In this document: in pieces, positions 42,626 through 61,672 of the stretch
Numbering within the stretch: position 1 is the first letter of the stretch
How the letters are laid out: every line of letters begins with the position of its first letter
Assembly: GCA_002070215.1 (NCBI GenBank)
Contig: MWCV01000008.1
Coordinates: 1 to 64,000, forward strand
Reading direction: 5' to 3'
From: Chloroflexi bacterium ADurb.Bin180
GTDB lineage: Bacteria > Chloroflexota > Anaerolineae > UBA2200
Length of the DNA stretch: 64,000 nt
Position numbers and translations under genes: made by a program
The notes under the pieces: model-generated
Seen by the model: the letters and a program-made list of their open reading frames with translations, nothing else
Databases searched by the model: none
Told to the model about the DNA's origin: nothing

Positions 42626-43636
42626 ATGAAAAACTGGCGCACGTGGGCGGGAGTGCTCATCAGCCTGCTCTGTATCTTTTGGCTGGTGCGCGGTACAAAT
42701 CCCCGTGTCTTGTACGATACTCTCCGCCGAACAGAGTACCAGTGGCTGATTCCGGTCGTTCTGCTCTATGCCGGCGGTATGTGGGTGCGAGCGGTGCGCT
42801 GGCAATTGCTGCTGCGCAGCAGCGGTAGCGTCGACTTGGGCCGGCTTTTCCGCTGGAGCAACATTGGCTACCTGATCAACAACCTGGCGCCGCTGCGCCT
42901 GGGAGATGTGCTGCGCGGCTACCTCTGCTCGGAGGGCGCGGGCATCAACCTGGTGAGCGTGCTCTTTACACTGGTAGTGGAGCGCCTGGCCGATGTGGTG
43001 GCGCTGGTGTTGATTCTCGTGGCCCTGCTGCCGCGAGTCGACCTGCCCACCCGGTACCTCGCACCAGTGCTATGGATCGCGCTGGCTGCTGCGGCGGCGG
43101 TTGCGGTGATGATCCTGGTTGCCGTCAGGCCACGCTGGTCGCTGGACTGGTTCGACCGCCTCGCCCGGCGGTTTCCCGCGCTGGACCGACCCTGGCTGAG
43201 GCGGGCAGTGCACTCGGCCGTCAAGGGCCTTGCTGTTCTGGGCAGCGGCAACAGCGTCGCCGGGGTGCTGGGCTGGTCGCTGGTGGCCTGGCTGGCCGCC
43301 GGTCTGCAGTATTACTGGACGGCACGGTCGGTCGGGCTGGCACTGCCGGCACCAGCCGCGCTGCTGCTGGTTTGTCTGACGTCGCTGGGTATGGTGGTGC
43401 CAGCGTCGCCCGGGTCGCTCGGCGTTATCGAGTCGATCACAGTGCTGACCCTGGCCCTGTTCGGTGTGGGTCGCGAGGTCGCTCTGGGCTACGCCCTGGT
43501 GCTGCGAGCGGTGAGCTATGTGACCCTGTTCGGCCTGGGGCTGGTTTCGCTGTGGAGCGAAGGCATCGACCTGCAGCACCTGCGCCAGGCGCTGGCCCGT
43601 CCGACCAAACAGCAGGGCGATACGGAGCGGGAGTAG
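42626..43636 (+). CDS. Lysylphosphatidylglycerol-synthase-TM/AglD-like membrane protein
   Basis: The 336-residue protein has about eight helices and belongs to the LPG_synthase_TM (UPF0104) family: LAPLRLGDVLRGYL near residue 90, VERLADVVALVL near 122, and SLGMVVPASPGSLGVIE near 255. Members include the flippase part of MprF and archaeal glycosylation proteins. Here it may flip or help polymerise a lipid-linked sugar. No synthase domain is attached. Transcribed from its own strong, near-leaderless promoter, starting the right-hand glycan block. Confidence 0.85.
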   Translation: MKNWRTWAGVLISLLCIFWLVRGTNPRVLYDTLRRTEYQWLIPVVLLYAGGMWVRAVRWQLLLRSSGSVDLGRLFRWSNIGYLINNLAPLRLGDVLRGYLCSEGAGINLVSVLFTLVVERLADVVALVLILVALLPRVDLPTRYLAPVLWIALAAAAAVAVMILVAVRPRWSLDWFDRLARRFPALDRPWLRRAVHSAVKGLAVLGSGNSVAGVLGWSLVAWLAAGLQYYWTARSVGLALPAPAALLLVCLTSLGMVVPASPGSLGVIESITVLTLALFGVGREVALGYALVLRAVSYVTLFGLGLVSLWSEGIDLQHLRQALARPTKQQGDTERE

Positions 43637-43706: not shown

Positions 43707-44840
43707 TTGAAGATCCTGGTCGTACTCACCTACTACTACCCGCACTGGACCGGGTTGACTGCCTACGCCAGGCGCCTTTCGGAGGGCTTGGCCCGCCGTG
43801 GCCACCAGGTAACCGTGCTGACAGCGCAGTACTGGAAGACGCTGCCGGCCGAAGAGGTTCACAACGGCGTACGTATCGTGCGGCTGCCGACGATCATGCG
43901 GCTCAGCCGAGGCGTGATTATGCCTGGCTTTCCTGCGGCAGCTAACCGCCTGATCCGCGAGCACGACGTGGTGCAGGTTCACGTGCCGATATTCGAGTCG
44001 CCGCTGGTGACGGGACTGGCCAGGCACTATGGCAAGAAGGTAGTGATCACGCACCACGGCGACCTGGTGATGCCGTCGCGGCCTTTTGATCAGTTCGTGC
44101 AGTTCTTTGTGACCGGCCTGATGCGCCGTGCTCTGTCTCAGTCGGCGCGCATCACCATTCACACGCGCGACTATGCCGAGTGCTCGCCCTTTCTGAGCCA
44201 GTTCTCGGACAAGCTGGTGCAGATCCTGCCGCCGGTGGAGATCCCGCTGCCGCAGCCGGAGCGGGTCAAGGCCTGGCGTCAGGAGCTGGGGCTCGATGGC
44301 GTCAACGTAGTGGGATTCGCCGGCCGGTTCGTCGAAGAAAAGGGCTTTGACTATCTGCTGAAAGCGGTGCCGCTCGTTCTGGAGCAGCTTCCGAATACGC
44401 GCTTTGTGTACGCCGGCGAGGTCAATGTCGTCTATGAACCGTTCTTTGAACAGTGGCGTCACCTGCAGGAGCGCTGGAAGGAGCAGGTGCTGATGCTGGG
44501 CCTGCTGAACGACCAGCAGCAGGTGGCCAACTTTTACGCCCTGTGCGATGTGCTGGCCCTGCCGAGCCGCACCGACTGCTTCCCGATGGTGCAGGTCGAG
44601 TCGATGCTGTGCGGCACACCGACCGTGGCCACGGATATCCCGGGGCTGCGCGTGCCGGTCAAGCTCACCGGAATGGGCCGCCTGGTCAAGCCGATGGACG
44701 AGCAGGCCCTGGCCGAAGGCCTGGTGGACGTGCTGCGCAACAGGAATCAGTACCTGCGGCCTAGGGAGGACATCGCCCGGCTGTTCGACCTGGAGACGAC
44801 CATAGATGGTTATGAGCGCCTGTTTCAGAGTCTCGTGTGA
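43707..44840 (+). CDS. GT4-type glycosyltransferase (GT-B fold)
   Basis: The 377-residue protein is a soluble GT-B enzyme. N-terminal VLTYYYPHWTGLTAYARRL is the typical beta/alpha start, and the C-terminal domain has FAGRFVEEKGFDYLLKAV and the nucleotide-sugar motif LPSRTDCFPMVQVESMLCGTP with the E-x7-E-like pattern. It would transfer sugar from a nucleotide donor to a lipid-linked acceptor on the cytoplasmic side. TTG 43707 has GGAG 11 nt upstream. It follows the flippase-like gene by 70 nt. Confidence 0.9.
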   Translation: MKILVVLTYYYPHWTGLTAYARRLSEGLARRGHQVTVLTAQYWKTLPAEEVHNGVRIVRLPTIMRLSRGVIMPGFPAAANRLIREHDVVQVHVPIFESPLVTGLARHYGKKVVITHHGDLVMPSRPFDQFVQFFVTGLMRRALSQSARITIHTRDYAECSPFLSQFSDKLVQILPPVEIPLPQPERVKAWRQELGLDGVNVVGFAGRFVEEKGFDYLLKAVPLVLEQLPNTRFVYAGEVNVVYEPFFEQWRHLQERWKEQVLMLGLLNDQQQVANFYALCDVLALPSRTDCFPMVQVESMLCGTPTVATDIPGLRVPVKLTGMGRLVKPMDEQALAEGLVDVLRNRNQYLRPREDIARLFDLETTIDGYERLFQSLV

Positions 44841-44888: not shown

Positions 44889-46928
44889 GTGAGAGCCAGA
44901 ATCCGCCCCGTCTGGGGCCTCGTCGCCCTCGCATCGGTGTGGCTGGCCGTTTCGGGCCAGCAGCGCCTTTCGGTGCGCAACTTTCCCGCCGATGGCGTGC
45001 TCTTGCTTGGCGCGGCAGTGGTGCTCTTCCTGCTCGCGGTGGTGTGGAAGGGCCGGGAGAATCCGCCCTTGTGGCCCAACAACTCGGCGCCGCGGGACAA
45101 CTCGCCGCAGGTCAACCTGACGCGAGGCAGGCTGCGCCGGGCACTCTTTGGTCTGGCGGTAGTGCTGGCGGCGGTGGCCTTTGCCTCTCTGGCCAAGAAC
45201 CGCTTTACCGTGCGCGGCGTGGTGTGCTGGGTGGTGGCCACGGTGGCCTGGATTCTGGCTATGGTCCAGGTGTCGCCGCAGGGCATCGTGCAGCCGGTCC
45301 TGTCCCGGGTGCGCTCCTTCATTCGGGAGCGCGGCGTTCAGAAGCGGGTGGACTGGGTGGCGCTGTGCTTTGTCGGTATCCTGGCCCTGTCCTTCTTCTT
45401 TCACCTGTACCGCGTGTCCGAGGTGCCAGCCGAGCCCCAGAGCGACCACGTCGAGGCCTCCGAGGACGTGCGCTCGATTCTCAAGGGCCAGTACATGATC
45501 TACTTCCCCCGCAACACCGGCCGCGAAGGCACCCAGTTCTACCTGACCGCGCTGCTCTCACGCCTCTTTGGCTACGGCTTTACCACGCTCAAGCTGACGA
45601 TGGCCCTGGTAGGCATGCTCAACATCATACCAATGTACTTTCTGGGCAAAGAGCTGGCCGACCGAAAACTCGGCCTGCTGGCAGCGTTTGCCATCGCCGT
45701 GTCCTACTGGCACCTCATCGTCAGCCGCATCGGCTGGCGCATCGTGCTGATGCCCTTCTGGACTACGACCGTGCTGTGGCTGCTCCTGCGGGCTTTACGC
45801 ACCGGCCGCCGCAATGACTATATTTGGACCGGCCTGGCGCTGGGCGCGGGGCTGTACGGCTATATGTCCTTCCGCATCATGCCTTTCCTGGTGATCGTCT
45901 TTTTCGGCATCAAGCTCTTGTTCGACCGCGAGCCGGGCTTTTCCCTCCGCCGGCTGCTGGGCAACCTGGGCGCCCTGGCGGGCACCGCAGCGCTCGTCTA
46001 CCTGCCGCTGATCCGTTACCAGTATGACGAGCCCCGGATGTACTGGTACCGCGTGCTCACTCGCACCACCGACCTGGAGCGGCCGGTGGGCCAGAGCTCG
46101 CTGACCGTCTTTGTCGATAACGTGCGGCGGGCCCTGCTGATGTTCAACTGGACCGGCGATGCCGCCTGGACGGCCAGCGTGCCCACCAGGCCGATTCTCG
46201 ATTACGTGAGCGGCGGACTGTTCGTGCTGGGCGCGGCCTACTTGCTGTACCTGCTGGTGGCCAGGCGTCGGCCTCTGGCCCTCTACTGGCTGGCCGCTGC
46301 CTTCATGACTCTGCTGCCGTCGACGATGTCGGTGGCCTTTCCCATCGAGAACCCCAGCAACATCCGCGCCTCGGGCGTCATCCCGGTGATGTTGGTGCTG
46401 GTAGCGCTGCCGCTCTATCTGGTCGGCCGGCAGGTGGTACGCGTGCTGCGCGGCGGGCTGGGCTGGGCGCTGGTGCTGACCCTGGGCGGGCTGCTCCTCT
46501 ACCGCTCGGCGATGCTCAACTTTCACCTGTTCTATGTAGACTATGACGAGCAATACCGTCGGGCGGCCTGGAATGCCACTGATATGGCCCGGGTGATGAA
46601 CGGTTTTGCCGACACCCTGGGCAGCATCTATGATGCCTACTGCATCGGCACGGCCTACTGGGTGGACCATCGGGCCATTGCCCTGTCCATACCGAACATG
46701 GAATGGAACAACCTGATAATGGATATGAGGGAGGCCGAGCCGCACCTCCTCGAGCCGCGCAACAGGCTCTACATCTACAATCCCTCCAACACAGCGGCCG
46801 AGCGCTGGCTTCTGACCCACTACCCGAACGGCCAGTTGCTGCGCTACCAGGCCTTTCAAGCGGACAAAGACTTTATGGTGTTCTATGCCCCTGCCCAGCA
46901 GAGCCCCGCACCCCTGGCGGGGCAGTGA
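44889..46928 (+). CDS. PMT-like membrane glycosyltransferase, first of a tandem pair
   Basis: The 679-residue protein has an N-terminal block of about four helices (1-145), then the GT-C core with SDHVEASEDVRSILKGQY in the first outside loop, YPRN-type YFPRNTGREGTQFY, and VSYWHLIVSRIGWR. The C-terminal soluble part ends near residue 679. GTG 44889 has GGAGG 7-8 nt upstream. It shares the order and several motifs with the next gene (46936), implying tandem duplication. Likely a glycosyl transfer enzyme acting outside the membrane. Confidence 0.78.
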   Translation: MRARIRPVWGLVALASVWLAVSGQQRLSVRNFPADGVLLLGAAVVLFLLAVVWKGRENPPLWPNNSAPRDNSPQVNLTRGRLRRALFGLAVVLAAVAFASLAKNRFTVRGVVCWVVATVAWILAMVQVSPQGIVQPVLSRVRSFIRERGVQKRVDWVALCFVGILALSFFFHLYRVSEVPAEPQSDHVEASEDVRSILKGQYMIYFPRNTGREGTQFYLTALLSRLFGYGFTTLKLTMALVGMLNIIPMYFLGKELADRKLGLLAAFAIAVSYWHLIVSRIGWRIVLMPFWTTTVLWLLLRALRTGRRNDYIWTGLALGAGLYGYMSFRIMPFLVIVFFGIKLLFDREPGFSLRRLLGNLGALAGTAALVYLPLIRYQYDEPRMYWYRVLTRTTDLERPVGQSSLTVFVDNVRRALLMFNWTGDAAWTASVPTRPILDYVSGGLFVLGAAYLLYLLVARRRPLALYWLAAAFMTLLPSTMSVAFPIENPSNIRASGVIPVMLVLVALPLYLVGRQVVRVLRGGLGWALVLTLGGLLLYRSAMLNFHLFYVDYDEQYRRAAWNATDMARVMNGFADTLGSIYDAYCIGTAYWVDHRAIALSIPNMEWNNLIMDMREAEPHLLEPRNRLYIYNPSNTAAERWLLTHYPNGQLLRYQAFQADKDFMVFYAPAQQSPAPLAGQ

Positions 46929-46935
46929 GCCGCCA

Positions 46936-49029
46936 ATGAGCAGAGACGAAGCCAGTACGCCCATCCGGTGCCGACCCGCTGCCAGCGTGACCAGAGTGCG
47001 GGCGTCGTGGAGCCTGCTCCTGGCCGTGGTCTGCCTGGCTCTGGCGGTCTTTGCCCAGGGCCGCTTTGACCAGCGTCTGCTCAATGCATCGTCCTATCTG
47101 GCCTGTGGCGCGGCGGCGGTGCTCTTCGTAGTAGCCTTTGGCGGCATCGCCCAGGAGCGGGAGCCGTCATCCGCTGAGGCAAGCGGCCAACCGACGGCAA
47201 CACCGCGCGTGTGGGGTGTGCTGCTCGCCTTCCTGGCCGTGTCGCTGCTGGGCTGCCTCGATTTCGGCGGCAACGAGTACCGGAAGGTCGGATTGATTCT
47301 CTGGCTGGGCGGCCTGCTGCTGGCGCTGGGCTGGCTCTACCTCAACGAACGCCTCAGCTGTCCGGCAGCGGTGCAGCCCCGGCCGCAGGCGCGTCGCAAG
47401 TGGTTCACGCCAACGCTGGTGTTGCTGCTGGCCGCGGTCGCGGTCGGCGCGTGGCTGCGCTTGTACCAGCTCGACATCATTCCGGCGGACATTGGCTGGG
47501 ATCTGCCCTACAACTATACCGACGTGCTGTCCATACTGCGCGGGCAGCACAACATCTTTTTCACCGCCAACATGGGTCGCGAGGGACTCTTCTTCTACTG
47601 GGTGGCCTTTCTGACCCGCTTTGGCGAGCTGAGTCACTTTTTGCTCAAGCTTAGTTCCGCCTTGATCGGCATTGCGACCATACCGGTCCTGTACTGGACC
47701 GGGCGCGAGCTCTTCTCCCCGGCGGTGGGCCTGGCTGCTGCTTGGCTGCTGGCAGTCAATCACTGGCACATTGTGCTCAGCCGGCCCGGGTTCCGCGTGA
47801 TCCTGCTGCCGTTGTTCGTTCTCCTTTTCCTCTGGTCCGTGGCTCGGGCTCTGCGTCGCGGCAGGTGGTTCGATTTCGGGCTGGCCGGGGTGGCCATCGG
47901 GCTGGGCATGCAGACCTACACCCCGTTTTTCTTTGCCCCTGTGGCGCTGGCGATAGCTCTGGTCCTGTACCTGCTGACAGAGCGCCGGGCCTGCTGGCGG
48001 CAGTGGGTGGGCGGACTGGTGTTGATGGCGCTCGTAGCGCTGGTGACCTTTGCCCCGCTGGGCCGCTATGCGCTGGAAAACCGTGCCGCCTATCTGAAAC
48101 GTATCGGCCTGCAGTTAGAGCTGGTGCAGGGCGAGCGCAACACGCCCCGGGTGACCACTCCGTTGCTGCTGGAGAACGTGCGCACGAGTCTGCTCATGTT
48201 CAACGTCTATGGCGATTCCAATGCCCGCTTTAACGTACCCGGCTTCAGGCACCTGGGCCAGATCAGCGCACTGCTGCTCGTGCCGGGGCTGGCCTACGCC
48301 CTCTGGCGCTGGCGCAAGGGCAGCAACGCACTGCTGCTGGCCTTTTTCTTGGTGCTGATCGCACCAATGACTCTGGCCATGCTGCCCCACGAGATGCCCA
48401 ACGTCTTTCGCGCCGCCGGCACCATCGGCCCGGCGCTGCTCCTGTGCGCGCTGACCCTCACCGCGGTCTACGAGCAGTTGCGGATCCTCGGCTCTACCTA
48501 TCCGGCGTGGGACCTTCGCCTCAGGCTGCAGGCGGCATCGGCGCAGCGTGAGGGCGCAGTGGAGTGGCTGATCGGCCGGCGCGGCGCGCTGGCGCTAGCC
48601 GGAGTCGCCATCGTCGGTTTGTTCCTGCTGGCCGAGTTCCGCGATACGCGGCAGTTCTACTTTCACGATTTCAAGAACGTTCTGCCGGACAGCCAGAACG
48701 TGTCCATCGCCCGCGAGTTCGCCCGGCAGATCGAGGCCTATGGCGACCGCTCGTCAGTCTACGTCAAGGGTTGGCCGTACTGGTTCGATGGGCGGGCCCT
48801 GCGCACCTACCTGCAAATGGCGCCCGAGGAGCAGGAGCGGGTCTTTATTGACTTGATCGATGGCCAGTGGCCGCTGTCCGACGTGCGACAGCGGGCGTTG
48901 TTCATCCTGCACCCGGAGGACGTGGCGGGGCTGAGCCGTCTGCGACAAGAGTTCCCTCACGTGGTGAGCATTGTTCATTACCTGCCCGGAGGTGTCCCGG
49001 GCTATGTCACTGTCTTTGTCGAGCGGTGA
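46936..49029 (+). CDS. PMT-like membrane glycosyltransferase, second of a tandem pair
   Basis: The 697-residue protein repeats the layout of its neighbour: N-terminal helices, the loop WDLPYNYTDVLSILRGQH, NMGREGLFFY and VNHWHIVLSRPGFR. Between helices it carries fewer acidic residues at the start of the loop than the first paralogue (IGWDLPYNYTD), so donor specificity may differ. ATG 46936 lies 7 nt after the upstream stop without a clear ribosome site, so translation is probably coupled. Function inferred from fold only. Confidence 0.78.
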   Translation: MSRDEASTPIRCRPAASVTRVRASWSLLLAVVCLALAVFAQGRFDQRLLNASSYLACGAAAVLFVVAFGGIAQEREPSSAEASGQPTATPRVWGVLLAFLAVSLLGCLDFGGNEYRKVGLILWLGGLLLALGWLYLNERLSCPAAVQPRPQARRKWFTPTLVLLLAAVAVGAWLRLYQLDIIPADIGWDLPYNYTDVLSILRGQHNIFFTANMGREGLFFYWVAFLTRFGELSHFLLKLSSALIGIATIPVLYWTGRELFSPAVGLAAAWLLAVNHWHIVLSRPGFRVILLPLFVLLFLWSVARALRRGRWFDFGLAGVAIGLGMQTYTPFFFAPVALAIALVLYLLTERRACWRQWVGGLVLMALVALVTFAPLGRYALENRAAYLKRIGLQLELVQGERNTPRVTTPLLLENVRTSLLMFNVYGDSNARFNVPGFRHLGQISALLLVPGLAYALWRWRKGSNALLLAFFLVLIAPMTLAMLPHEMPNVFRAAGTIGPALLLCALTLTAVYEQLRILGSTYPAWDLRLRLQAASAQREGAVEWLIGRRGALALAGVAIVGLFLLAEFRDTRQFYFHDFKNVLPDSQNVSIAREFARQIEAYGDRSSVYVKGWPYWFDGRALRTYLQMAPEEQERVFIDLIDGQWPLSDVRQRALFILHPEDVAGLSRLRQEFPHVVSIVHYLPGGVPGYVTVFVER

Positions 49030-49138: not shown

Positions 49139-52100
49139 ATGGATTCAGGATACGAACCAGTACCCGACGGCAACCAACCCGCCGTAACCCCGGACCGGCC
49201 GACGCAGGCCGCGCCCGAGGAAGCTGCGCCGCCACCACCGCCGACGCCGACTCTACTCGGTGAGCGGCTGCGCGCGCTCGCATCGCGCGTCAGGGCCTGG
49301 GTCGAGTCCGGCGGGCTGTCGCGGCTGGTGGACCAACCCTACTTTGTGCCGCTGTGCCTGGTGGCCATTCTGCTGCTGGGTGCCTACTTTCGCTTTACCG
49401 GCGTGAACTGGGATGACTATACCCACCTGCACCCGGATGAGCGCTTTGTGTGGATGGTCGAGCTCTCGCTCAACTGGCCCAAGAGCATCGCCCAGTACTT
49501 TGATACGGCCACTTCGCCGCTGAACCCGTACAACGTCGGCAGCAGCTATATCTATGGCACCCTGCCCCTCTTTGTGACCAAGGCGGCGGGCCAGGCACTG
49601 CATGTCGGCGGCGACAAGATCCACCTGGTCGGCCGGGTGCTGGCCGGCCTGTACGACCTGGCCACCGTCTGGCTGATGTACCTCATTGGCAAAAAGCTCT
49701 ATGGCAAGGTGGCTGGCCTCCTGGCCGCGCTGTTCACCGCCACGCTGGTCATCCACATTCAGCAGTCGCACTTTTTCTCCGCCGATAGCTGCGTGGCGAT
49801 GTTCGTGGTGCTGACCTTTTACTGGTGCATCTGGGTGGTCGAGCGCGGCCGGTGGAGCGACTTCTTCTGGATGGGGTTGAGCTACGGGCTGGCCGTATCC
49901 TCCAAGATCAATGTGGCCCTCTTTGGCGTGGTGATGGCCCTGGCCTGCGTGCTGCGGCTGTACCGCCTGCTGCAGGAACCGGAGCCGGCCGAGCCAGCGC
50001 CGGGGACGCTGCCGGAGAATGAAGTACGTGAGAACGGCGCGGGCCTCAAGCAGGCCCTGATGGAGTGGAAACTGACCCTGGGCGGGGTCCGCTTTGCCTT
50101 CCGCGTCGAGCCGCCGCCGGCAGAAGCAGGCGACGCAGTTGTTACGGAGCTCCCGGCCGCTGAGCGTGTCCAGCCAGAGGCCGCCTCTGCCGAGCCGGTG
50201 GCTGCCCAGCCAGTGGCCGCTGAGCCAGAGCGGGAGGCACTCGCGGAGCCTTCCCGGCCCGACTGGCTCGAGGCAGGCTTTCAGGTCGCGCTGCGCTTTG
50301 CAGTTGCTCTCGTAGTGGCCTTCCTGGCCTTTCGCATTGCCCAGCCCTACAGCTTTCAGGGGCCGGGGTTTTTCGGCATCAAGCTGGCGCCGGCCTGGCT
50401 CAAAGACATCAAGTACTGGGCGCAGGCCGCCGACGGCGTCATTGACCTGCCGTTCAATATGTTCTGGACCAGCCGGGCACCGGTGCTCTACTCGCTGCAG
50501 AATATGGTGCTGTGGGCCGTTGGCGTTCCCCTCAGCCTGGCTGCCTGGGCCGGCTGGCTGCTGGCCTGGTACGAGCTGCTCCGCCACCGCAAGCTGAACC
50601 ACGCGCTGGTGCTGCTCTGGACGACCTTTTTCTTCCTGTACCAGTCGACGCGCTTTGGCAAGCTGTCGCGCTATCTGACGCCGTTCTTCCCCTTTATGGC
50701 CATGCTGGCCGGCTACCTGCTCGTTCAACTGTGGAGGAAGGTCCAGATGTGGAGAGAAGAATGGCCCGCCCGCCGCGCGGGCAGTGGCCGGGCGGTTCGC
50801 TGGCTGACCATTGCTGCGGTGGCGTTCACCCTGTTTGTCACCGTCGGCTCTGTCTCCTGGGCCTATGCTTTCAGCCGGATCTACACCCGGCCGCTCACGC
50901 GCGTTACGGCCTCGCTGTGGGTCTATGACAACATCCCTGCCGGCTCGGCCATCGGCTGTGAGCACTGGGACGACGCCATCCCCTGGGGCGGTGTAGGCGG
51001 GCGCAACGGCTATGCCGACGGCACCTACGGCTGGGTCGAGTTCCACCCCTATGCCGAAGACGAGCCGATCAAGCTGGACTGGTTCGTCGACTGGCTCTCT
51101 CAGGCCGACTATATCATCCTGAGCAGCAACCGCTGCTATGGCTCGATCCCGCGCCTGCCGATGCGCTTTCCGATGACCACGCGCTACTACCGGTATCTGT
51201 TCGCCGGCGACCTGGGCTTTGAGCTGATCAAAGAGTTCACCTCTCGGCCCAACCTGGGCGTGCTCGAGTTTGTCGACGACGACGCCGAAGAGCCCTTTAC
51301 CGTCTACGACCACCCCAAGGTGTCCGTCTTCCGCAAGACGCCCGAGTTTAACCCGGATGAGGTGCGTGCCCTGCTGGGCGACGGCATCGACTGGCTGAAC
51401 ATCGCTCGCATACGCCCTACCGAGGTACCCAACTTTCGCAACGGGCTGCAGTTGAGCGATGACGAAAAGCACGCCCAGCAATCGGGCGGCACCTGGAGCG
51501 GGATCTTTAACCGCAAGAGCCTGGCCAACGCCGCGCCCGTGCTGGTCTGGCTGCTGGTGGTCGAGGTCATCGGCTGGATCACCTTCCCGCTCAGCTACTA
51601 TGTCTTTCGCGGGCTGAAGGATCGCGGGTTCATCTTCTCCAGGACCCTGGGCATCCTCCTGATGGCCTGGCTCACCTGGATGCTGGTCAATGCCGGGCTG
51701 GCTACCTTTACCCGCGGCGCCATCTTGCTGGCCCTGCTCTTGATGGCCGCCGGCTCCGGCTTGATCTTTTGGCGGCGCAAGAACGAGCTGCTGTCCTTCC
51801 TGCGCGAGAACCGGCATCTGCTGGCCTTTAACGTGGTGCTCTACCTGTTGTTCTTTGTCGGCTTCTTGCTCATTCGCTACGGCAACCCCGACCTGTGGCA
51901 CCCGATTATGGGCGGCGAAAAGCCGATGGATTTCGCCTACCTCAATGCGGTTATCCGCAGCACGGTCTTTCCGCCCTACGACCCCTGGTACGCCGGTGGC
52001 TATCTCAACTACTACTATTTCGGGCAGATCATCCTGGCCGTGCTGATCAAGCTCACCGGCATCGTGCCTTGGGTAGCCTACAACCTGTCCATCCCGCTGC

Positions 52101-54169
52101 TGGCGGCCCTCACCGCGATGGGTGCCTTCTCCGTGGTCTACAACCTGACCCTGCCTGCCGACAAAAAGCGCCGGCAGGCGCAGCCTGTTGCCCCTGAGGC
52201 CAGCGAGGCGGCCGCGCCAGAGGGCGGCGCTCAAGCCGTGACCTGGGCCAATCGTCTGCGAACCTGGCTCGGCTCCTGGAACGCGCCGATGACCTATGCC
52301 CTCTTCGGCGCGCTGCTGGTGGCCGTGCTGGGCAACCTGGCCGAGATCGCGGTGCCGCTGCGCGCTCTGTGGGAGCTGGGCACCTCGACCACGCAAAGCT
52401 CGATTCCCCTCGTCTCGGCGGCACTCAAGGTATTGTCGGGCCTGTCGCGGGTGCTGCGCGGGCAAGCCCGGCTGGCCCTGCGGCCCGAGTGGCCCTACTG
52501 GAATCCCTCGCGCGTGATGCCCAACGGCGAGATCAACGAGTTCCCCTTCTTCACCTTCCTCTACGCCGACCTGCACGCGCACCTGATCGCTCTGCCCTTT
52601 ACTCTGCTGGCGCTGGGCCTGGCCGTGGCGGTCATTCGGCGTGCGACCACCCCGAAGGACGCGCACGGCTCGCCGGGCCTGCTGGCACGCTGGAAGAGCC
52701 GCCTGCCGGCCGTCGTGACCCGCCTGCTGGCGCGCATCGACTGGTCCGAGATCCTGATCCTGGGCGTGATCGGCCTGGTGGTCGGCGCGCTGCGCCCGAT
52801 CAACTCGTGGGACTATCCGACCTATCTCCTGGTGGCCGGTGTGGCGCTGCTCTTGCGCGAGCAGGAACGGCGAAAGCGTATCGACCTGGGGCTGTTGTGG
52901 ACGGTAGGCATCAAGTCGCTCATCGTGCTGGGCCTCAGCTTTGTTCTGTACCAACCCTTCCTCTCGCGCTATGCCACGGCCTATACCACCTTTGAACGCT
53001 GGAAGGGCGCCCGCACGGGCCTGGGCAACTACCTGGGCATCCACGGGCTGTTCCTCTTTGTGCTCATCACCTGGATGGGCATCGAGCTGTTCAGCCGCGA
53101 GGTGCGCGAGGGCACGGTGCGCATGCTGCAGCTCTGCGTGCGCTACTGGGATCGTCTGCCGCGCCTCCTGGGGGCCTACAACCGCCTGGTGCGCAAGGGC
53201 CGCCAGTACGACTCGCTGGGCTGGGCCATCGTGCTGCCGCTGGCTCTGGTCGCGCTGTGGCTGGCCCTGGCCAAACAGTGGTTCTTCCTGTTCGTCTGGC
53301 TGCTGATCCTGGGCGCGCTGATGATCGTCCTGCGCCTGAGACTGGAGATCCGACAGCGCTTTGTCTGGCTCCTCTTTGGCATCGGACTGGTCCTGTCGAT
53401 GGCCGTGGACCTGGTGGTGCTCAAGGGCGATATCGGACGCATGAACACCGTGTTCAAGTTCTACCTGCAGTTGTGGGTCTTCTGGTCGGTGGGTGCGGCA
53501 GTGGGGCTGAGCCACATTTTGGAGCGCTTCCGGGCGCGCCAGGGAGCGCCGGCCGTGTGGACGCGTGCGGCAAGGAGCGTTTGGCAAGGGGGCCTGGCCT
53601 TCCTGATCTTCCTGGCGGCGCTCTACCCGGTGATGGCCACCAGAGCCAAGATTTATGACCGCTTTGATGCCACGCTCGGCCCGAGTCTGGACGGAACCGC
53701 CTATATGCACACCGCCGTCTACAATGATGGCGGACAGGAGATTCAGCTCAAGTACGACCTCGAGGCCATCAACTGGCTGCTCGACAACGTGAAGGGTTCG
53801 CCGGTGATCGCCGAGGCCAACACCGAACCGCGCGGACTCTATCGCTGGGGGTCGCGCGTGGCCATCTACACCGGCCTGCCGACCATCATCGGCTGGAGCT
53901 GGCACCAGCGCCAGCAGCGCTCGGCCATGCCGGGCCAGTGGATCGACCAGCGCCTGCGGGACGTGCAGCAGCTCTACTCCGACCCCAGTCCGGAGGCGGC
54001 GATGGAGATCATCAAGCGCTATGACGTGCGCTACATCTATGTGGGCGAGGTCGAACGCATCTACTATCCTGATTTTGGCCTGCGCAAATTCGAGGAGATG
54101 AGGGCCAACGGCCTTCTCGAACTGGCCTACCACAACGAGCAGGTCAGCATCTACCAGGTCAAGGACTGA
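49139..54169 (+). CDS. Fusion of a GT39-like domain with a YYY (DUF2298) domain
   Basis: The 1676-residue protein has two parts. Residues 1-780 are GT39-like, with NWDDYTHLHPDERF in the first loop and EPFTVYDHPKVSVFRKT near 720, paralogous to the gene at 40642. Residues 800-1676 form a DUF2298/YYY domain with NYYYFGQ near 957, preceded by EKPMDFAYLNAVIRS, and GRMNTVFKFYLQLW further on. A Glu/Ala/Pro-rich insertion (about 285-380) separates helices in the first part. It is unusually long for either family. The fusion implies that the GT-C and YYY parts work together on the same lipid-linked substrate. Confidence 0.85.
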   Translation: MDSGYEPVPDGNQPAVTPDRPTQAAPEEAAPPPPPTPTLLGERLRALASRVRAWVESGGLSRLVDQPYFVPLCLVAILLLGAYFRFTGVNWDDYTHLHPDERFVWMVELSLNWPKSIAQYFDTATSPLNPYNVGSSYIYGTLPLFVTKAAGQALHVGGDKIHLVGRVLAGLYDLATVWLMYLIGKKLYGKVAGLLAALFTATLVIHIQQSHFFSADSCVAMFVVLTFYWCIWVVERGRWSDFFWMGLSYGLAVSSKINVALFGVVMALACVLRLYRLLQEPEPAEPAPGTLPENEVRENGAGLKQALMEWKLTLGGVRFAFRVEPPPAEAGDAVVTELPAAERVQPEAASAEPVAAQPVAAEPEREALAEPSRPDWLEAGFQVALRFAVALVVAFLAFRIAQPYSFQGPGFFGIKLAPAWLKDIKYWAQAADGVIDLPFNMFWTSRAPVLYSLQNMVLWAVGVPLSLAAWAGWLLAWYELLRHRKLNHALVLLWTTFFFLYQSTRFGKLSRYLTPFFPFMAMLAGYLLVQLWRKVQMWREEWPARRAGSGRAVRWLTIAAVAFTLFVTVGSVSWAYAFSRIYTRPLTRVTASLWVYDNIPAGSAIGCEHWDDAIPWGGVGGRNGYADGTYGWVEFHPYAEDEPIKLDWFVDWLSQADYIILSSNRCYGSIPRLPMRFPMTTRYYRYLFAGDLGFELIKEFTSRPNLGVLEFVDDDAEEPFTVYDHPKVSVFRKTPEFNPDEVRALLGDGIDWLNIARIRPTEVPNFRNGLQLSDDEKHAQQSGGTWSGIFNRKSLANAAPVLVWLLVVEVIGWITFPLSYYVFRGLKDRGFIFSRTLGILLMAWLTWMLVNAGLATFTRGAILLALLLMAAGSGLIFWRRKNELLSFLRENRHLLAFNVVLYLLFFVGFLLIRYGNPDLWHPIMGGEKPMDFAYLNAVIRSTVFPPYDPWYAGGYLNYYYFGQIILAVLIKLTGIVPWVAYNLSIPLLAALTAMGAFSVVYNLTLPADKKRRQAQPVAPEASEAAAPEGGAQAVTWANRLRTWLGSWNAPMTYALFGALLVAVLGNLAEIAVPLRALWELGTSTTQSSIPLVSAALKVLSGLSRVLRGQARLALRPEWPYWNPSRVMPNGEINEFPFFTFLYADLHAHLIALPFTLLALGLAVAVIRRATTPKDAHGSPGLLARWKSRLPAVVTRLLARIDWSEILILGVIGLVVGALRPINSWDYPTYLLVAGVALLLREQERRKRIDLGLLWTVGIKSLIVLGLSFVLYQPFLSRYATAYTTFERWKGARTGLGNYLGIHGLFLFVLITWMGIELFSREVREGTVRMLQLCVRYWDRLPRLLGAYNRLVRKGRQYDSLGWAIVLPLALVALWLALAKQWFFLFVWLLILGALMIVLRLRLEIRQRFVWLLFGIGLVLSMAVDLVVLKGDIGRMNTVFKFYLQLWVFWSVGAAVGLSHILERFRARQGAPAVWTRAARSVWQGGLAFLIFLAALYPVMATRAKIYDRFDATLGPSLDGTAYMHTAVYNDGGQEIQLKYDLEAINWLLDNVKGSPVIAEANTEPRGLYRWGSRVAIYTGLPTIIGWSWHQRQQRSAMPGQWIDQRLRDVQQLYSDPSPEAAMEIIKRYDVRYIYVGEVERIYYPDFGLRKFEEMRANGLLELAYHNEQVSIYQVKD

Positions 54170-54189: not shown

Positions 54190-56802
54190 ATGTTGGCGGT
54201 ATTCAGTTGGTGGCTCATCTTGTTGCTGCTGGGGTTGGTGGCCCTGCCGCTCACCCTGCGGCTGTTCCGTTTTCTGCCCGACCGCGGCTATGCCTTTGCC
54301 CGGCCGCTGGGTCTGCTGCTGACCGGTTATGTGCTCTGGCTGGGCGGCAGCCTGGGCCTGCTGAACAACGGGCGCCTGGCCATGCTGGGCATCATCGCCC
54401 TGCTGGCGGCCGTGTCGCTGTGGATCTGGCGGCGCGACGGCGCTGAGCTGCGGCAGTTCCTGCGCGACAACCGCGGACTCATCCTGGCCACGGAGCTGGT
54501 GTTCCTGCTGGCCTTTGCCGGCTGGGCCCTGGTGCGCGCCTACAATCCCGAGATCTCGGCCACCGAAAAGCCGATGGAGATCGCCTTCCTCAACGCCATC
54601 CTGCGCAGCGAGCGTTTCCCGCCGAACGATCCCTGGCTCTCCGGCTATGGCATCAGTTACTACTACTTTGGCTACCTGCTGATCTCCGTCCTCACGCGGC
54701 TATCCGGCGTGGCGGCCAGCGTGGCTTTCAACCTGGCCATCGCGCTCCTGTTCGCCCTGGCGGCAACGGGCTCCTTCAGCCTGGTGTACAACCTGGTGCG
54801 CACCGAGCAGGGGAGCCGCGTGGTCAAGCGCGTTTCGGCTGTCCTGTGGGCTTTGCTCGGGCCGCTTTTTGTGGTGGTGGTCGGCAACCTGGAAGGCGTG
54901 TTCGAGGTGCTGCACACGCGCGGCCTGGGCTCGGCGGCATTCTGGAAATGGCTGGACGTCAACAACCTCGCCGAGGCCGCGGTGAGCGGCCAGTGGGTGC
55001 CGCAGGATATGTGGTGGTGGTGGCGCGCCTCGCGCGTGGTCAACGACCGTGACCTGTACGGGGCGCATATGGAAGTGATCGACGAGTTCCCCCAGTTCAG
55101 CTTTTTGCTGGGCGATATGCATCCCCACGTGCTGGCGCTGCCCTTTGTGCTGCTGACGCTGGCGCTGGCGCTCAACGTGCTGCTGGGGGCAGCGTCCTGG
55201 TGGCAGCAGCGCAGTGACCAGGCATCAGCCGTTCGGACCGGCTCGCGCCGCAGAAAGGCCGCCAGCGCTGAAGAAGCGTTGGCTCAAGTCTCGGCGCCGG
55301 TCAGCGAGTCGACCCTGTCGCGGGCACGGCGGTGGCTCGGCTCGGTCTGGGACTATGCCTGGTTCCTGCTCCGTCAGCGCACTTTCGACATAGGGCTGCT
55401 GGCCTTTGGCCTCGGCGCGCTGGGCTTTCTCAATACCTGGGACCTGCCGATTCACCTGTTTGTGATCTGCGGGGCGTTTCTCGTCGGCCAGCGGGCGCTG
55501 CGCAACGAGCAGTGGCTCAGGCACACTATCGGCTTTACCGGGGCACTCCTGGTTCCGGCGGTGCTCCTGTACCTGCCCTTCTATCTGGGATTCCAGTCTC
55601 AGGCCGGTGGGGTGCTGCCGGTGCTGTTCAACGTGACCCGGGTGCACCAATACCTGCTGATGTTCGGGCTGTTCATCTTTGTGCTGGTCACCCTGACCCT
55701 GTCCGAGCTGATGGGCCTCTTTGGCCGGTCGTCGGCCGAGGAGCGCCGCTTCCTGCCGCTCGACCTGCTGCAGTGGTTCGCCTGGTTCATCCTGGGGCCG
55801 GTGCTGCTGATTCTGGCCAGTGTGGCTTTAGTCCTGGCCACCAAGAACGGCCGCGAGTTCATCCAGGGGGTTCTGGCCGACCAGCGCGTCCAGTCGCTGA
55901 TCGGCTCTCAGGGGGTGCTGGGCTTGCTGCGCCAGTCAGTGCTGCTGCGCCTGGGCAATCCCTGGGTGTTTGTGCTTACCGCCGGCACCCTAGCCGTATT
56001 GGTGCTGCTGCTGGAGCGGTCGTGGCGCGGGGAGCACCAGGAGGGAGAATCCACCCCGGCCCTGCACTTTTCCTATCTGATGGCCGGCACGGGATTCCTG
56101 TTGACGCTGGCCGTCGAGTTCGTCTACCTGCGTGACTCGTTCGGCACGCGGATGAACACGGTGTTCAAGTTCTACTATCAGGCCTGGCTGCTCTTTGCCC
56201 TGGCCTCAGCCTATGGCTGCTATCACCTGCTCGGGCGGCCCAGCATCGCGCCCTCCACCGGCAAGACGGTTGCTCGCGGAGTGTGGGCGGCAGCGCTGGT
56301 GCTGCTGATCTCGGCCAGCCTGGTCTACCCGCTGCTGGGCGTTCCCAGCAAGGCCGGCGATTTCAAAGGCAAGCCGACGCTGGACGGCATGGCCTTTATC
56401 GAGGGGTTCCGCGCCGATGATTACGCCGCCATGCTCTGGCTGCAAAAGAACGTATCCGGCAGCGCACACATCGTCGAATCGACGGGGGGCTCTTACACCG
56501 AAACGGCCTGGGTCTCGGCCTTTACCGGCCTGCCCACCGTGCTGGGCTGGGACTTTCACGAGCATCAATGGCGCGGCAACTCGACCGAGGCCAACCTGCG
56601 CCGCCCGCTCATCGAGCAGATCTACCAGGGCACGGATCGCGAGCAAGTGCTGTCGATTCTGGACAAGTACGACATCGAGTACGTGTACCTCGGGCCGGTG
56701 GAGCGAAGCAAATTCAACCTGCCACCCAACGTGGACGAGCGCCTCGGCCGCTTCCTGGACAAGGTCTTTGAGCAGGGCAGTGTGAGCATCTATCGGCGCT
56801 GA
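54190..56802 (+). CDS. YYY-family (DUF2298) membrane protein
   Basis: The 870-residue protein is a stand-alone YYY domain with about fifteen helices. It has SYYYFGY near residue 156, EKPMEIAFLNAILRS before it, and RMNTVFKFYYQAW near 655, all matched by the second half of the preceding gene. A soluble C-terminal segment ends GPVERSKFNL...SIYRR. The family is found mainly in Chloroflexota and archaea and has no proven function. GGAGG precedes ATG 54190 by about 5 nt. It is 20 nt downstream of the fusion gene. Confidence 0.87.
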   Translation: MLAVFSWWLILLLLGLVALPLTLRLFRFLPDRGYAFARPLGLLLTGYVLWLGGSLGLLNNGRLAMLGIIALLAAVSLWIWRRDGAELRQFLRDNRGLILATELVFLLAFAGWALVRAYNPEISATEKPMEIAFLNAILRSERFPPNDPWLSGYGISYYYFGYLLISVLTRLSGVAASVAFNLAIALLFALAATGSFSLVYNLVRTEQGSRVVKRVSAVLWALLGPLFVVVVGNLEGVFEVLHTRGLGSAAFWKWLDVNNLAEAAVSGQWVPQDMWWWWRASRVVNDRDLYGAHMEVIDEFPQFSFLLGDMHPHVLALPFVLLTLALALNVLLGAASWWQQRSDQASAVRTGSRRRKAASAEEALAQVSAPVSESTLSRARRWLGSVWDYAWFLLRQRTFDIGLLAFGLGALGFLNTWDLPIHLFVICGAFLVGQRALRNEQWLRHTIGFTGALLVPAVLLYLPFYLGFQSQAGGVLPVLFNVTRVHQYLLMFGLFIFVLVTLTLSELMGLFGRSSAEERRFLPLDLLQWFAWFILGPVLLILASVALVLATKNGREFIQGVLADQRVQSLIGSQGVLGLLRQSVLLRLGNPWVFVLTAGTLAVLVLLLERSWRGEHQEGESTPALHFSYLMAGTGFLLTLAVEFVYLRDSFGTRMNTVFKFYYQAWLLFALASAYGCYHLLGRPSIAPSTGKTVARGVWAAALVLLISASLVYPLLGVPSKAGDFKGKPTLDGMAFIEGFRADDYAAMLWLQKNVSGSAHIVESTGGSYTETAWVSAFTGLPTVLGWDFHEHQWRGNSTEANLRRPLIEQIYQGTDREQVLSILDKYDIEYVYLGPVERSKFNLPPNVDERLGRFLDKVFEQGSVSIYRR

Positions 56803-56833
56803 CGTGCCGGGCCTGAACTCTGGGGTAAGGGAT

Positions 56834-58579
56834 ATGACTGTGATGCTTGAAACCAATACTGAATCGCCCAAGCGCTCCTTTACGGTGGAGATGGGGCTCT
56901 ACGGCCTCATCCTGCTGCTGGCGCTGGCGCTGCGCCTGATCAACCTGGGGCGCTGGCCCCTGGTGGACCTGGAAGCAGGGATGGCCCTCTCGGCCTGGCG
57001 CTTTGCCCGTGCACTGCCCTCCTCCCTGCGCGGCTTTAGCCCGCTCTTGTTCAACTGGAGCGCGCTGGTGTCCTTCCTCAGTGGAGGGACCGACGGCCTG
57101 GTGCGCGGCCTGTCGCTACTGGCTGGCAGCGCGATGGTGTTGTGGCCCTTTGGTCTGCGCCGCTATCTGGGCCGCGTGGGCGCTCTGGCCTCGGCCCTGC
57201 TGCTGGCCTTTTCACCGTCGCTCGTCTTTTTCTCGCGCCTCGCCGATGGCACGATCCTGCTGGCTTTCTGCGGACTGGGTCTGGTCTGGGCGACCCTGGG
57301 CTACTGGGAGACCCGGGAGCGGAGCTATCTCATCTGGGCAGCGGTGCTCAAGACCGTCGCCCTTCTTTCCTCACCGCTGGTCTATACGCTGCTGCTCGTG
57401 CTGCTGGCCCTGCCGGCCGCGCTGTGGCTGCACCGCCGCGTGGCTCACGAAGACGAACCGTGGCTCCTCTGGAGTGACTCGGTCAAGGCTATGGTCGCGG
57501 ACCGCGCCGCCTGGTTGCCGGCGTGCGTTGCTGTGGGTCTGGTGCTGCTGGTCGGCGGCCTGGGCTTGCTGATAAATCCGCTGGGCCTGCAGCAGGCGCT
57601 GGACCTGTTCGGGCGCTGGGTGGGCGGCCTGGAGTGGCTGCGCGGAACCTGGTACCGGCTGCCGCTCCTGCTGGTGGCCTACGAGGCGCTGCTCCTCGTG
57701 CTGGGCCTGGCCGGTCTGGTGACCGAGCGCTCGCGACGCGATCTGACCTCCTTCCTTCTGCGTGCCTGGCTGGGGGTGGCGCTGCTCGTGTCCATCGTTC
57801 CCGGCTATCGTCCACCGGCCAGCGTGGTGCTGGTGCTGATTCCGCTGTGCCTGCTGGGCGGGCAGGCCGTCGAGCGGCTGTGGGGGGCCCTGGGTGAGTG
57901 GAAAACACACCCCCTGCTGTGGGCACTGGTGGGCGCGGGCTGCCTGGTGGCCTTTGCCTCACTCATCCAGTTGGTTACTTATCTGGCCAATCCCTCCACG
58001 CCATACCTGCTGCGCATCGCGGCACTGGCGGTGTTCCTGCTCTCACTCTACGCTCTGGCGTGGAGCCTGCGCGGCATCGCCGTTCCCCTGCGGGCCCTGG
58101 TCGTGCTGGCGCTGGTGCTGCTCGCGGTGGGCGGCCTGCGCACGATGGCCAGGGTGAACTATCTCACCGCGCGCGACCCGCTCGAGCCGCTGGTGGGCAG
58201 CACCGTGTCGCCGGAGGTGCTCGACCTGGCGCGCTATGCCGCGCGCTTCTCCAGCGAGACCAAGGGCGACCCGCGCGTGCTCTCCTGGCAGGTCGACGAG
58301 TCGTTGGAAGTGCCCGTGGGCTGGTACCTGCGCCAGTTCGACAACGTGCGCTTTGAGCGGCGCCTGCCGGACGCGCCCACTGCCGATGGACTGATCTTTC
58401 CCGTCGCTGCTGGGCAGCCGGCGCGCTACGTGGGGCTGCGCTTGGCCATTCATTCCTACTACCCCGGCGGCAGCTTTGGCCTCAACGAGTGGGTGCGCTG
58501 GTGGGTAGGGCTCAAGTCGGCTGTGTCGCTCATCACGAATGAAGACGCCGTGCTGTGGGTCAGGGCGCCCCAGCAGTAG
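56834..58579 (+). CDS. GT-C-like membrane protein of the YYY locus
   Basis: The 581-residue protein has about eleven helices and a soluble C-terminus. Its first loop is NLGRWPLVDLEAGMALSAWRF, with D-x-E in the place of the acidic motif of GT-C transferases, followed by FSPLLFNWSAL. This differs from the other members, so it may be a divergent PMT-like enzyme. ATG 56834 (or 56843) follows AAGGG closely; the exact start is unclear. It lies between the YYY and Agl23-like genes, which suggests a role in the same pathway. Confidence 0.7.
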   Translation: MTVMLETNTESPKRSFTVEMGLYGLILLLALALRLINLGRWPLVDLEAGMALSAWRFARALPSSLRGFSPLLFNWSALVSFLSGGTDGLVRGLSLLAGSAMVLWPFGLRRYLGRVGALASALLLAFSPSLVFFSRLADGTILLAFCGLGLVWATLGYWETRERSYLIWAAVLKTVALLSSPLVYTLLLVLLALPAALWLHRRVAHEDEPWLLWSDSVKAMVADRAAWLPACVAVGLVLLVGGLGLLINPLGLQQALDLFGRWVGGLEWLRGTWYRLPLLLVAYEALLLVLGLAGLVTERSRRDLTSFLLRAWLGVALLVSIVPGYRPPASVVLVLIPLCLLGGQAVERLWGALGEWKTHPLLWALVGAGCLVAFASLIQLVTYLANPSTPYLLRIAALAVFLLSLYALAWSLRGIAVPLRALVVLALVLLAVGGLRTMARVNYLTARDPLEPLVGSTVSPEVLDLARYAARFSSETKGDPRVLSWQVDESLEVPVGWYLRQFDNVRFERRLPDAPTADGLIFPVAAGQPARYVGLRLAIHSYYPGGSFGLNEWVRWWVGLKSAVSLITNEDAVLWVRAPQQ

Positions 58580-58591
58580 GAGTGTTGACTT

Positions 58592-61500
58592 ATGGAGTCA
58601 AGTAGTCTCGACAGACCCACCCTCTCAGGCGCGCTCGACAGACCGCTCCTGTCTGTTCTTCGTATCAACGGGTGGAAGATCATTCTGTTGCTACTGGTGG
58701 TGCTGCTGGTCTTTACCCGGCTGTATGACCTGGGCAACCGCGCCTACTGCCACGACGAGAGCACCCACGCCTGGGAGCCCTGGAAGCTGATCACCGGGCA
58801 GGGCTATCGCTTCGACCCGGTCTATCATGGCCCCTTCCTCTATCACGCCACGGCGCTGGTCTACTGGCTGTTCGGTGATTCGGACACCACGGCGCGCATC
58901 GCTTCGGCGCTGCTGGCCATTCTGTCCGTCCTGCTGGTGTGGCCGCTGCGCAAGTGGCTCGGCAAGGCCGGCGCTCTGTTCACGATGTTCCTGCTGACCC
59001 TCTCCCCGAGCATGATGTTCCGCGGGCGGTTCATCCGTCACGATATCTTTGTCATCGCCCCGACCATGGCGGTGGTGGTGGCCTTTTTCCACTATGTCAC
59101 TGACCGCCGCCAGAGGTGGCTCTATGTCATCGCCGGCGGGCTGGCGCTGACGTTCTGTGCCAAGGCCAATTCGTTCATCAACGGGGCCATCTTTGGTGCC
59201 TTCTGGGTGGGGGCGCTGCTGGTCGACTGGTGGAAGACGCGCCGCCCTCTGCGCGAGCTGCCCGAGTTCGACCTGGCCGTACTGATGGCCACCCTGGCCC
59301 TGCCGCTGCTCACGCCGCTGGTGCTGATGGTTCTGAAGCTCAACCCGCGCGACTATAGCGATGCGGGCCTGTGGCGTATCAGGGGCGTGCTGCTGGTGCT
59401 CGTGGCCATTTCGGCGGTGATCGGCCTGTGGTGGAAGCGCAAGGTGTGGCCCATCGCCGCGGCCATCTACTATGCCATCTACATCCCGCTCTACACCACC
59501 ATGTTCACCAACGGGCAGGGCCTCGAGACGGGCTTTACCGGTATGGTCGGCCACTGGCTGGGCGAGCAGGGCGTGGCGCGCGGCGGACAGCCCTGGTTCT
59601 ACTTTTACTTCCTCAACGTGATCTACGAATTCCTGCCGCTCATCCTGGCCCTGCTGGCCATTCTCTACTACCTCTATCGTCTGTTGCGCGAGCTCAGGCC
59701 TCAGGCGGCAGAGGGGGAGAGCCAGACCGTCGCCACCGCTGCGCCGCCCTTTGTCGGTTTTATCCTGTTCTGGGGGCTGGGCACCTTTGCCTTCTGGACC
59801 TGGGCGGCGGAAAAGATGCCCTGGCAGAACATGCACCTGGTGCTCAACCTGTGCCTGGTGGCTGGCTGGTTCCTGGGCCAGGTGTGGCAGCGCGCGGACT
59901 GGCGCAAGCTGCTGAAGGAGGGATTCCTCCCTTGCCTGGTGTTGCTGCCAGTGATGCTTTTCGGCAATGTGGTCTGGGTGGTCACTCTGGCCGGCCGGCC
60001 CAAACCGTTCTCCGGTATGGAGCTCGAACAGCTTTACGTAACGCTGCGCTTTCTGCTGGGATTGATCGTAGAGGTCGTGGCCGGCGCCCTGCTCGTCGCC
60101 GGGTCACGCCGCTTTGGCTGGCGGGGCCTGGGCCGGGTGCTGCTGGCAGCGTTGTTCGTGGTGCTCACGGCGGCCACCATTCGCATTGCGGTGATGCTGA
60201 CGTTCATCAATCAGAACTATGCCACCGAGTTCCTGCAGTATGCCGCCGCTACGCCCGATACCGCCGATGTGATGGCCGAGCTGGGAGAGATCCGCCGCCT
60301 GCTGCCAGACGGCGAGCCGCTGCGCATCGCCTACGACAACGACTCGCAGCAGCCGTTCTTCTGGTATCTGCGTGAGCTACCCAACGTGACCTTCTTTACC
60401 GGCGACGGCGGCCTCTCAGGCGTGCACGATGTGGTCATCATCGGGCTGGACAACGAAACCAAGCTCAAGGCCCAGCTCGCCGGGCGCTACGTTCGGCGGA
60501 ACTATCGCCTGATCTGGTGGCCGTACGAGGATGTCTACCGCAACCTCACCCTGCGCAAGCTGTGGGATGACCTGCGCAGCCCCGAGCGGCTTAAGTTCTG
60601 GTGGAACATCTTCTGGTGGCGCAAGTACCCCGAGTCGACGGCCCTGTGGCCGTCGGTGCACCGCTTTGCTCTCTACGTGCGCAAGGACCTCGCGTCCCGG
60701 CTGTGGGTGCTGGGGCCGGACGTCCCGGGCGTGGATACCTCGCTGCCCGAGGACGACTATGAGAAGCAGCGACTCGACCTGGCCGCCATCCAGGCCTTTG
60801 GCAGCTCGCGGGAGCTCAACGACCCCAAAGGCGTGGCGGTGGACCACCTCGGCCGTGTGTACGTTGTGAACACACGCAATCATCGCGTCGAGGTCTATAG
60901 CGCCGATGGCCAGCTCGTGCAGACCATTGGCAGTCAGGGCACCGGCCCTGGCCAGTTCCAGGAGCCGTGGGGCATCGCGGTGGCCCCGGATGGCCACGTG
61001 TACGTGGCCGACACCTGGAACCACCGCATTGAAAAGTTCGACGCGCAGGGCCGCTTTGTCGCCACGTGGGGCACCTTTGGCGACACGGGTGGACTGCTCG
61101 GCGCGCCCGACGTGCTCTACGGCCCGCGCGACATTGCCGTGACGCCCGATGGCAACCTGATCGTCAGCGATACCGGCAACAAGCGCCTCATCAAGTTCTC
61201 ACCCGAGGGCACGTTCATCGCTCAGTGGGGCGGGGGAGGTTCCCTGCCGGGGCAGTTCCTGGAGCCCTGCGGCGTGGCGGTGGACGCCGCCGGCAACATC
61301 TATGTGGCCGACGTCTGGAACCACCGGATCCAGAAGCTCAGCGCCGACGGAGTCTACCAGTCACAGATAGCGGTCGTGGGCTGGGAGAGCGAATCCCCGG
61401 TGAACAAACCGTACCTGGTGGCGGACCAGTTCGCGTCGGTCTATGTGACTCAGCCGGACTATCACCGCGTGGTCAAGTTCGATAGCTCGGGCCGGGTGCT

Positions 61501-61636: not shown

Positions 61637-61672
61637 GCCGCGGACCAGAGGAATCTGCAGAGGATGGATGGG

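Follow-up and report, generated by a model that had tools for sequence, protein, structure and literature searches.

A Chloroflexota membrane protein predicted to join a PMT_2-type and a YYY-type GT-C glycosyltransferase module in one chain

The gene at 49139..54169 on the forward strand encodes a PMT_2-type GT-C domain that is joined end to end with a complete YYY/DUF2298 domain, and its frame is uninterrupted across 1676 codons. It is located in a 64,000-nucleotide stretch of contig MWCV01000008.1 of Chloroflexi bacterium ADurb.Bin180, hereafter the window. On the basis of predicted structures, this gene probably encodes a covalent pair of GT-C glycosyltransferases, composed of a PMT_2-type enzyme and a second, very divergent YYY enzyme. 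The evidence consists of the fusion itself, its conservation, the GT-C fold predicted for both halves, their conserved residues, and the gene order.

The fused gene and its family assignments

The cluster around the fused gene contains the following genes.

40642..42564, +, free GT39-type paralogue, 640 aa (BLASTP match to the first half of the fusion; nested in fused sequences)
42626..43636, +, LPG_synthase_TM flippase-like protein of the same cluster (PF03706, 1.2e-49; TIGR00374 above its cut-off)
43707..44840, +, GT4-type cytoplasmic glycosyltransferase of the same cluster (PF00534, 3.3e-29)
44889..46928, +, STT3-like PMT_2 protein, conserved upstream neighbour (domain searches; gene order)
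46885..49029, +, paralogue of the 44889 product, conserved upstream neighbour (hhalign, 100% with the 44889 family; gene order)
49139..54169, +, fused GT39-YYY gene, 1676 aa (single open frame; PMT_2 and DUF2298/TIGR03662)
54190..56802, +, single YYY protein of 870 aa, an ancient paralogue of the YYY domain in the fusion (TIGR03662, 571.6 bits; in a clade apart from fused YYY)
56804..58579, +, Agl23-like downstream neighbour (TIGR03663, 82.3 bits, below the cut-off of 126; order conserved)
58592..61636, +, Agl23 family protein with C-terminal NHL repeats (TIGR03663, 245.7 bits, cut-off 126; NHL, 2.2e-44)

An earlier note on this DNA had likened the first half to the free 40642 product, from a shared HPDER loop and FTVYDHP ending, and the second half to the product of the next gene. 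Both likenesses were confirmed by alignment. The first 780 residues matched the 40642 product in BLASTP over two long collinear stretches (122 and 102 bits; 28% and 34% identity; best E 6e-33). This extends far beyond the quoted motifs, which are indeed present in the first half at residues 98–102 and approximately 720–726, and it disposes of the objection raised in the same note that the similarity might end with them. The paralogue described there as nearby does exist, but it ends approximately 6.6 kb upstream of the fusion and is not adjacent. The last 877 residues (800–1676) matched the 54190 product with 294 bits (E 1e-90, 31% identity, 933 columns). They form a full YYY domain, for which NCBIfam TIGR03662 gave 552.7 bits on residues 800–1675 (cut-off 300.25; model positions 4–727) and Pfam gave DUF2298 (PF10060) at 1.4e-110. 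An antisense frame of 1626 aa (49253–54133, −) lies opposite the fusion, whose composition suggests a high-G+C artefact.

For the first half, the Pfam search listed PMT_2 at 7.7e-14 (52.7 bits, cut-off 26.1) and PMT at 2.2e-08 (34.4 bits, cut-off 22.7), and it gave no PMT_4TMC match at E up to 1. Characterized PMTs, the classical GT39 enzymes, possess a C-terminal PMT_4TMC domain. Because this domain was not listed, the first half was filed as a PMT_2-type GT-C module and not as GT39 proper; GT39 is a loose label only for it, and its closest predicted folds include AglB/Stt3 besides Pmt4 and ArnT. It shares with the GT39 enzymes (Pmt1-Pmt2, Pmt4) and ArnT both PMT and PMT_2 matches above cut-off, a DE motif, and the GT-C fold. 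Pmt1-Pmt2 is a complex (entry 6p25), whereas the fusion holds two different GT-C modules in one chain. The YYY domains of the fusion and of the 54190 product are both far above the cut-offs of TIGR03662/PF10060 (Chlor_Arch_YYY, DUF2298), and neither protein was matched by TIGR03663 in the NCBIfam search. Neither library gives a function for the YYY family; the GT-C fold and the motif assignment are additions of the present analysis. A literature search with DUF2298, PF10060, TIGR03662, and TIGR03663 found no functional paper and only incidental mention of DUF2298, though the GT-C assignment is possibly recorded elsewhere.

Predicted fold and conserved loop residues of the two halves

The modules and motifs of the fused chain are located as follows.

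49343..51373, +, first GT-C module (PMT_2 type), approximately residues 69–745, with a C-terminal extracytoplasmic domain (AlphaFold model; GT-C fold)
49430..49444, +, HPDER motif in EL1; D100/E101 are candidate catalytic acids (conservation)
50669..50671, +, Arg511, where the second-last TM helix of the first module begins on the outer side; a candidate for contacting the lipid phosphate (invariant in alignment A2; helix positions from the model)
51296..51316, +, FTVYDHP, close to where the C-terminal domain of the first module ends (sequence; D724 and H725 invariant in A2)
51374..51535, +, linker, approximately residues 746–799, with a GGTW motif (conserved in fusions)
51536..51775, +, three extra TM helices ahead of the YYY GT-C core, residues 800–879 (model helices; the K/R distribution puts the module N-terminus outside)
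51812..53662, +, predicted YYY GT-C membrane core, approximately residues 892–1508 (fold comparison)
51917..51931, +, EKPMD motif in EL1, residues 927–931; E927 is a candidate catalytic or metal-binding acid (conservation)
52010..52018, +, YYY motif, residues 958–960 (first two Y invariant in alignment A1)
52568..52582, +, DxHxH (D1144, H1146, H1148) in EL2, candidate metal site (conservation)
52802..52813, +, NxWD motif in a short outer loop, residues 1222–1225 (N, W, and D invariant in A1)
53438..53440, +, Arg1434 of RMN, where the second-last TM helix begins on the outer side; a candidate for contacting the lipid phosphate (invariant in A1)
53663..54166, +, YYY C-terminal extracytoplasmic domain, residues 1509–1676 (AglB C-terminal domain match; hhalign)

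The AlphaFold model of the first module (pLDDT 88.9, pTM 0.87) matched AglB (Z 31.5), Pmt4 (Z 27.5), and ArnT (27.3), which indicates the GT-C fold. D100 and E101 of its HPDER motif are invariant in the 36 aligned rows of A2, and 102 of 103 GT39-type domains contain the pattern HxDE.

The YYY half is also predicted to have a GT-C glycosyltransferase fold. For the model of the fused YYY domain (pLDDT 86, pTM 0.91), the top VIA-align ranks were all GT-C structures, namely Stt3 (19.0), ALG12 (17.3), AglB (17.0), and DPY19 (16.2), followed by Pmt1-Pmt2 (16.0) and ArnT (15.2) down to AftD (11.6). Below AftD came the AglB C-terminal domain on its own (9.8 and 7.4), and non-GT-C chains appeared only from 5.3. 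The match to GT-C entries spans residues 93–886 of the model, with Z of 12–19 to OST, ALG12, DPY19, PMT, ArnT, and Aft. Foldseek whole-chain TM-scores were low (0.25–0.36); the match is therefore taken as the common GT-C fold with large rearrangements. Among the known systems, Stt3/AglB/PglB, the GT-C catalytic subunit of OST, gave the best structural matches for both halves, and AglB possesses a C-terminal domain like that of YYY (entry 3vu0; Z 9.8, rmsd 2.8, 118 aligned). The YYY C-terminal domain was also aligned with that of the first module by hhalign, and a profile comparison of the two halves gave weak homology at the last helices and the C-terminal domain (P 5.9e-5). In 540–620 aa frames of relatives (e.g., G039:C98, G021:C6, and G011:C70), weak TIGR03662 matches limited to model positions of approximately 594–727 suggest that other membrane proteins have the final helices and the C-terminal domain in common with YYY.

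At the level of sequence, the YYY profile searched against the PDB found no link to any solved GT-C structure, and gave only chance matches to triosephosphate isomerase. It also gave no significant alignment with the STT3-like and Agl23 families, and the low-confidence full-length alignments, in which the active-site residues are not matched, were left out of the active-site assignment.

K/R counts in the YYY loops follow the positive-inside pattern: they broadly show the alternation that 16 TM helices with both termini outside would give. Since the first half would end outside, the three extra helices would return the chain to the inside before the core, which would let both active sites face out.

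The conserved acid and the DxHxH of YYY fall in putative outer loops. E927 (position 137 of A1), K, and M of EKPMD are invariant in the 24 rows of A1, and the pattern EKx[MF][DE] is present in 148 of 154 YYY domains, the other six lacking it. DxHxH, which in the model stands where the next core helix begins, is present in all 154, and R[MLIST]N in 153 of them; D948, E1134, N1222, W1224, and D1225 also belong to the invariant set. Both the EL1 pattern and DxHxH are kept in a YYY protein of a Pseudobutyrivibrio (Firmicutes) plasmid, and a haloarchaeal YYY protein that ends at the edge of its record retains DLHAH. OST metal ligands comprise an EL1 Asp and a DxD/DxE/DxH pair of EL2, and in AglB the metal is coordinated by D47, D161, H163, and R154 (PMC7226087). 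The DxH at EL2 is therefore a known OST variant, which the DxHxH of YYY resembles, and Glu is accepted as the EL1 acid in DPY19 (PMC10154233). Loop order and conservation thus make E927 and DxHxH candidate equivalents of the OST/AglB metal site, while R511 of the first half and R1434 of YYY are candidate equivalents of the lipid-phosphate Arg by topology only. The sequon motif WWDYG of OST was found in none of the 154 YYY domains, and the 1676-aa chain contains no WWD, so that neither half carries it.

Conservation and history of the fusion

In Chloroflexota the fusion is ancient and occurs widely, and it is probably functional. YYY was found in all 41 related genomes, at least 34 of which contain a YYY frame longer than 1300 aa, and in 198 of 301 genomes sampled across the phylum. 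Haloferax volcanii and Methanosarcina acetivorans also possess YYY. Among 80 loci of named Chloroflexota, a set picked for likeness to the fused domain and so biased towards fusions, nearly all complete copies are fused and five are GT39-YYY-YYY triples of approximately 2440–2790 aa. In the triple chains (L032, L035, L036, L092, L109, and L152), the third domain represents a distinct YYY subgroup. A GGTW-like motif is present in 83 of 115 fusions, and the distance from YDHP to the YYY domain has a median of 80 residues (range 64–133). In the family f56, a free GT39 gene is closely followed by a free YYY gene, in the same order as in the fusion. This adjacency and the conserved fusion support the earlier proposal that the two halves work together. 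Separate neighbouring genes of this kind might also be expected if the fusion were a tolerated read-through without functional meaning, but this is very improbable in view of the long frame kept in the related genomes, the narrow range of linker lengths, and the recurrent GGTW.

In a tree of 103 GT39-type domains, nine free 40642-type proteins formed one group (support 77, unstarred) inside the well-supported fused clade, and this nesting was repeated when the tree was rooted on the STT3-like neighbours (supports 87–90). Because of this nesting, the 40642 paralogue is probably derived from the fusion, most likely by loss of the YYY part from a fused copy or by a duplication that left this part out. 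The earlier note had argued from domains that also exist apart; a free GT39-type protein does exist, but the argument is weak because that protein is probably fusion-derived. The single YYY proteins such as 54190 constitute an old clade separate from fused YYY, on which ground 54190 was rejected as the lost YYY half of 40642. A recent fusion of two free domains was also rejected, the fusion being spread across the phylum. The split f56 genes lie outside the fused groups in both the YYY and GT39 trees, where the forks are open, and they stand at an open basal fork in the STT3-like-rooted GT39 tree. When Firmicutes and haloarchaeal sequences were used as the outgroup of the YYY tree, their branches were too long and the direction was not resolved. 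Adjacent genes that fused later are the simplest reading of the f56 pair, though not a proven one.

The GT-C fold alone does not establish that YYY is active, since PIG-U possesses this fold and is described as enzymatically inactive (PMC7801869). Such inactive proteins, the distance of the YYY sequence from all solved GT-C enzymes, and its fusion or adjacency to GT39 in many genomes are consistent with a catalytically dead GT-C-like subunit, which, like the regulatory partner of a pseudo-dimer, would position the carrier lipid or the acceptor so that the GT39 half can act. We consider this unlikely. If YYY had no site, the universal DxHxH and the near-invariant acid of EL1 would be difficult to account for, and YYY occurs where no homologue of the GT39 half was found, namely in genomes G095 and G228 and at the Pseudobutyrivibrio plasmid locus. 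The plasmid gene adjoins an O-antigen ligase and a GT2 gene. In the 1.5-Mb genome G095, YYY is accompanied by Agl23 and an LPG_TM flippase-like gene but by no detectable GT39 half, indicating that YYY is independent of the latter. The YYY half is hence best read as a second GT-C enzyme, probably metal-dependent, rather than an accessory. The earlier note had allowed for either an accessory or a partner of GT39-type transfer; partner is a reasonable description, but accessory is not supported, given the predicted fold of YYY itself, its own conserved loop residues, and its occurrence where no GT39-half homologue was found.

Several loci deserve separate mention. A MAG labelled Deltaproteobacteria (L084) carries a Chloroflexota-type fusion, reflecting either gene transfer or a binning error. 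In a Dehalococcoidia genome, a SMODS nucleotidyltransferase and a Cap17-like gene, forming a CBASS-like pair (L063, 13176–14878, −), are located beside the fusion. YYY homologues were also found in unannotated human-faecal "Bacteriophage sp." records (MT835950.1 and MT835846.1), which are possibly bacterial contigs.

Gene neighbourhood and proposed role

There is strong conservation of the gene order, which runs STT3-like, fusion, single YYY, Agl23-like. An Agl23-like gene lies directly downstream in 37 of the 67 loci with room for it and directly upstream in 0 of 66, while an STT3-like gene lies directly upstream in 27 of 66 and directly downstream in 0 of 67. Agl23 (TIGR03663) is a PMT_2-like membrane protein, and its profile does not align with that of YYY. 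Purified H. hispanica Agl23 translocates the lipid-linked oligosaccharide M5GN2-PP-Dol in liposomes (PMC11182771). The downstream Agl23-type genes and the LPG_TM flippase-like gene suggest that lipid-linked glycans are transferred on the outer side of the membrane. The translocation by a PMT_2-like neighbour also raises the idea that YYY itself is a GT-C-fold flippase or scramblase of lipid-linked sugars, in which case the fusion would couple flipping to transfer by the GT39 half. This is improbable, as the conserved acid and DxHxH occupy the position of the GT-C active site, in loops on the outer side, and not a path through the membrane, and Agl23-type proteins are already encoded next to YYY.

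For a pair of transferases, we infer activity, metal use, and substrates as follows. On the outer side of the membrane, each half would expose loops and a C-terminal domain of its own, and the linker and three extra helices would let both active sites face outside. Each would take its sugar from a carrier, either polyprenyl-phosphate or polyprenyl-diphosphate, and attach it to a glycan or glycoprotein of the cell surface, and the Agl23-type proteins encoded downstream may carry the lipid-linked donor across the membrane. In the YYY half, a divalent metal would be bound by E927 of EL1 and D1144xH1146xH1148 of EL2, like the EL1 Asp and DxH of AglB. The two sites may serve one acceptor or form a fixed dimer. 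A more detailed reading, put at slightly below an even chance, is that YYY constitutes a distinct uncharacterised GT-C glycosyltransferase family, found in bacteria and archaea, whose DxHxH is a metal site like that of AglB, and that Chloroflexota use it in two- and three-headed chains which transfer one sugar after another, outside the membrane, to a single acceptor that is lipid-linked or protein-bound.

If the assignment is true, it provides a family so far annotated as unknown with an enzyme class that can be tested, with candidates for the catalytic residues, and with a gene neighbourhood. Surface glycosylation of Chloroflexota is little known, and the cluster would then represent a concrete candidate pathway comprising two STT3-like proteins, the fused pair, the single YYY protein, Agl23-type proteins, and a flippase-like protein. 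The two- and three-module GT-C chains would also illustrate clearly that membrane transferases can be covalently linked in nature.

The 44889 product exhibits a weak archaeo_STT3 similarity. At 61664–64000 (+) lies a second Agl23-type gene, very like that at 58592, which runs into NHL-type repeats and continues past the end of the window.
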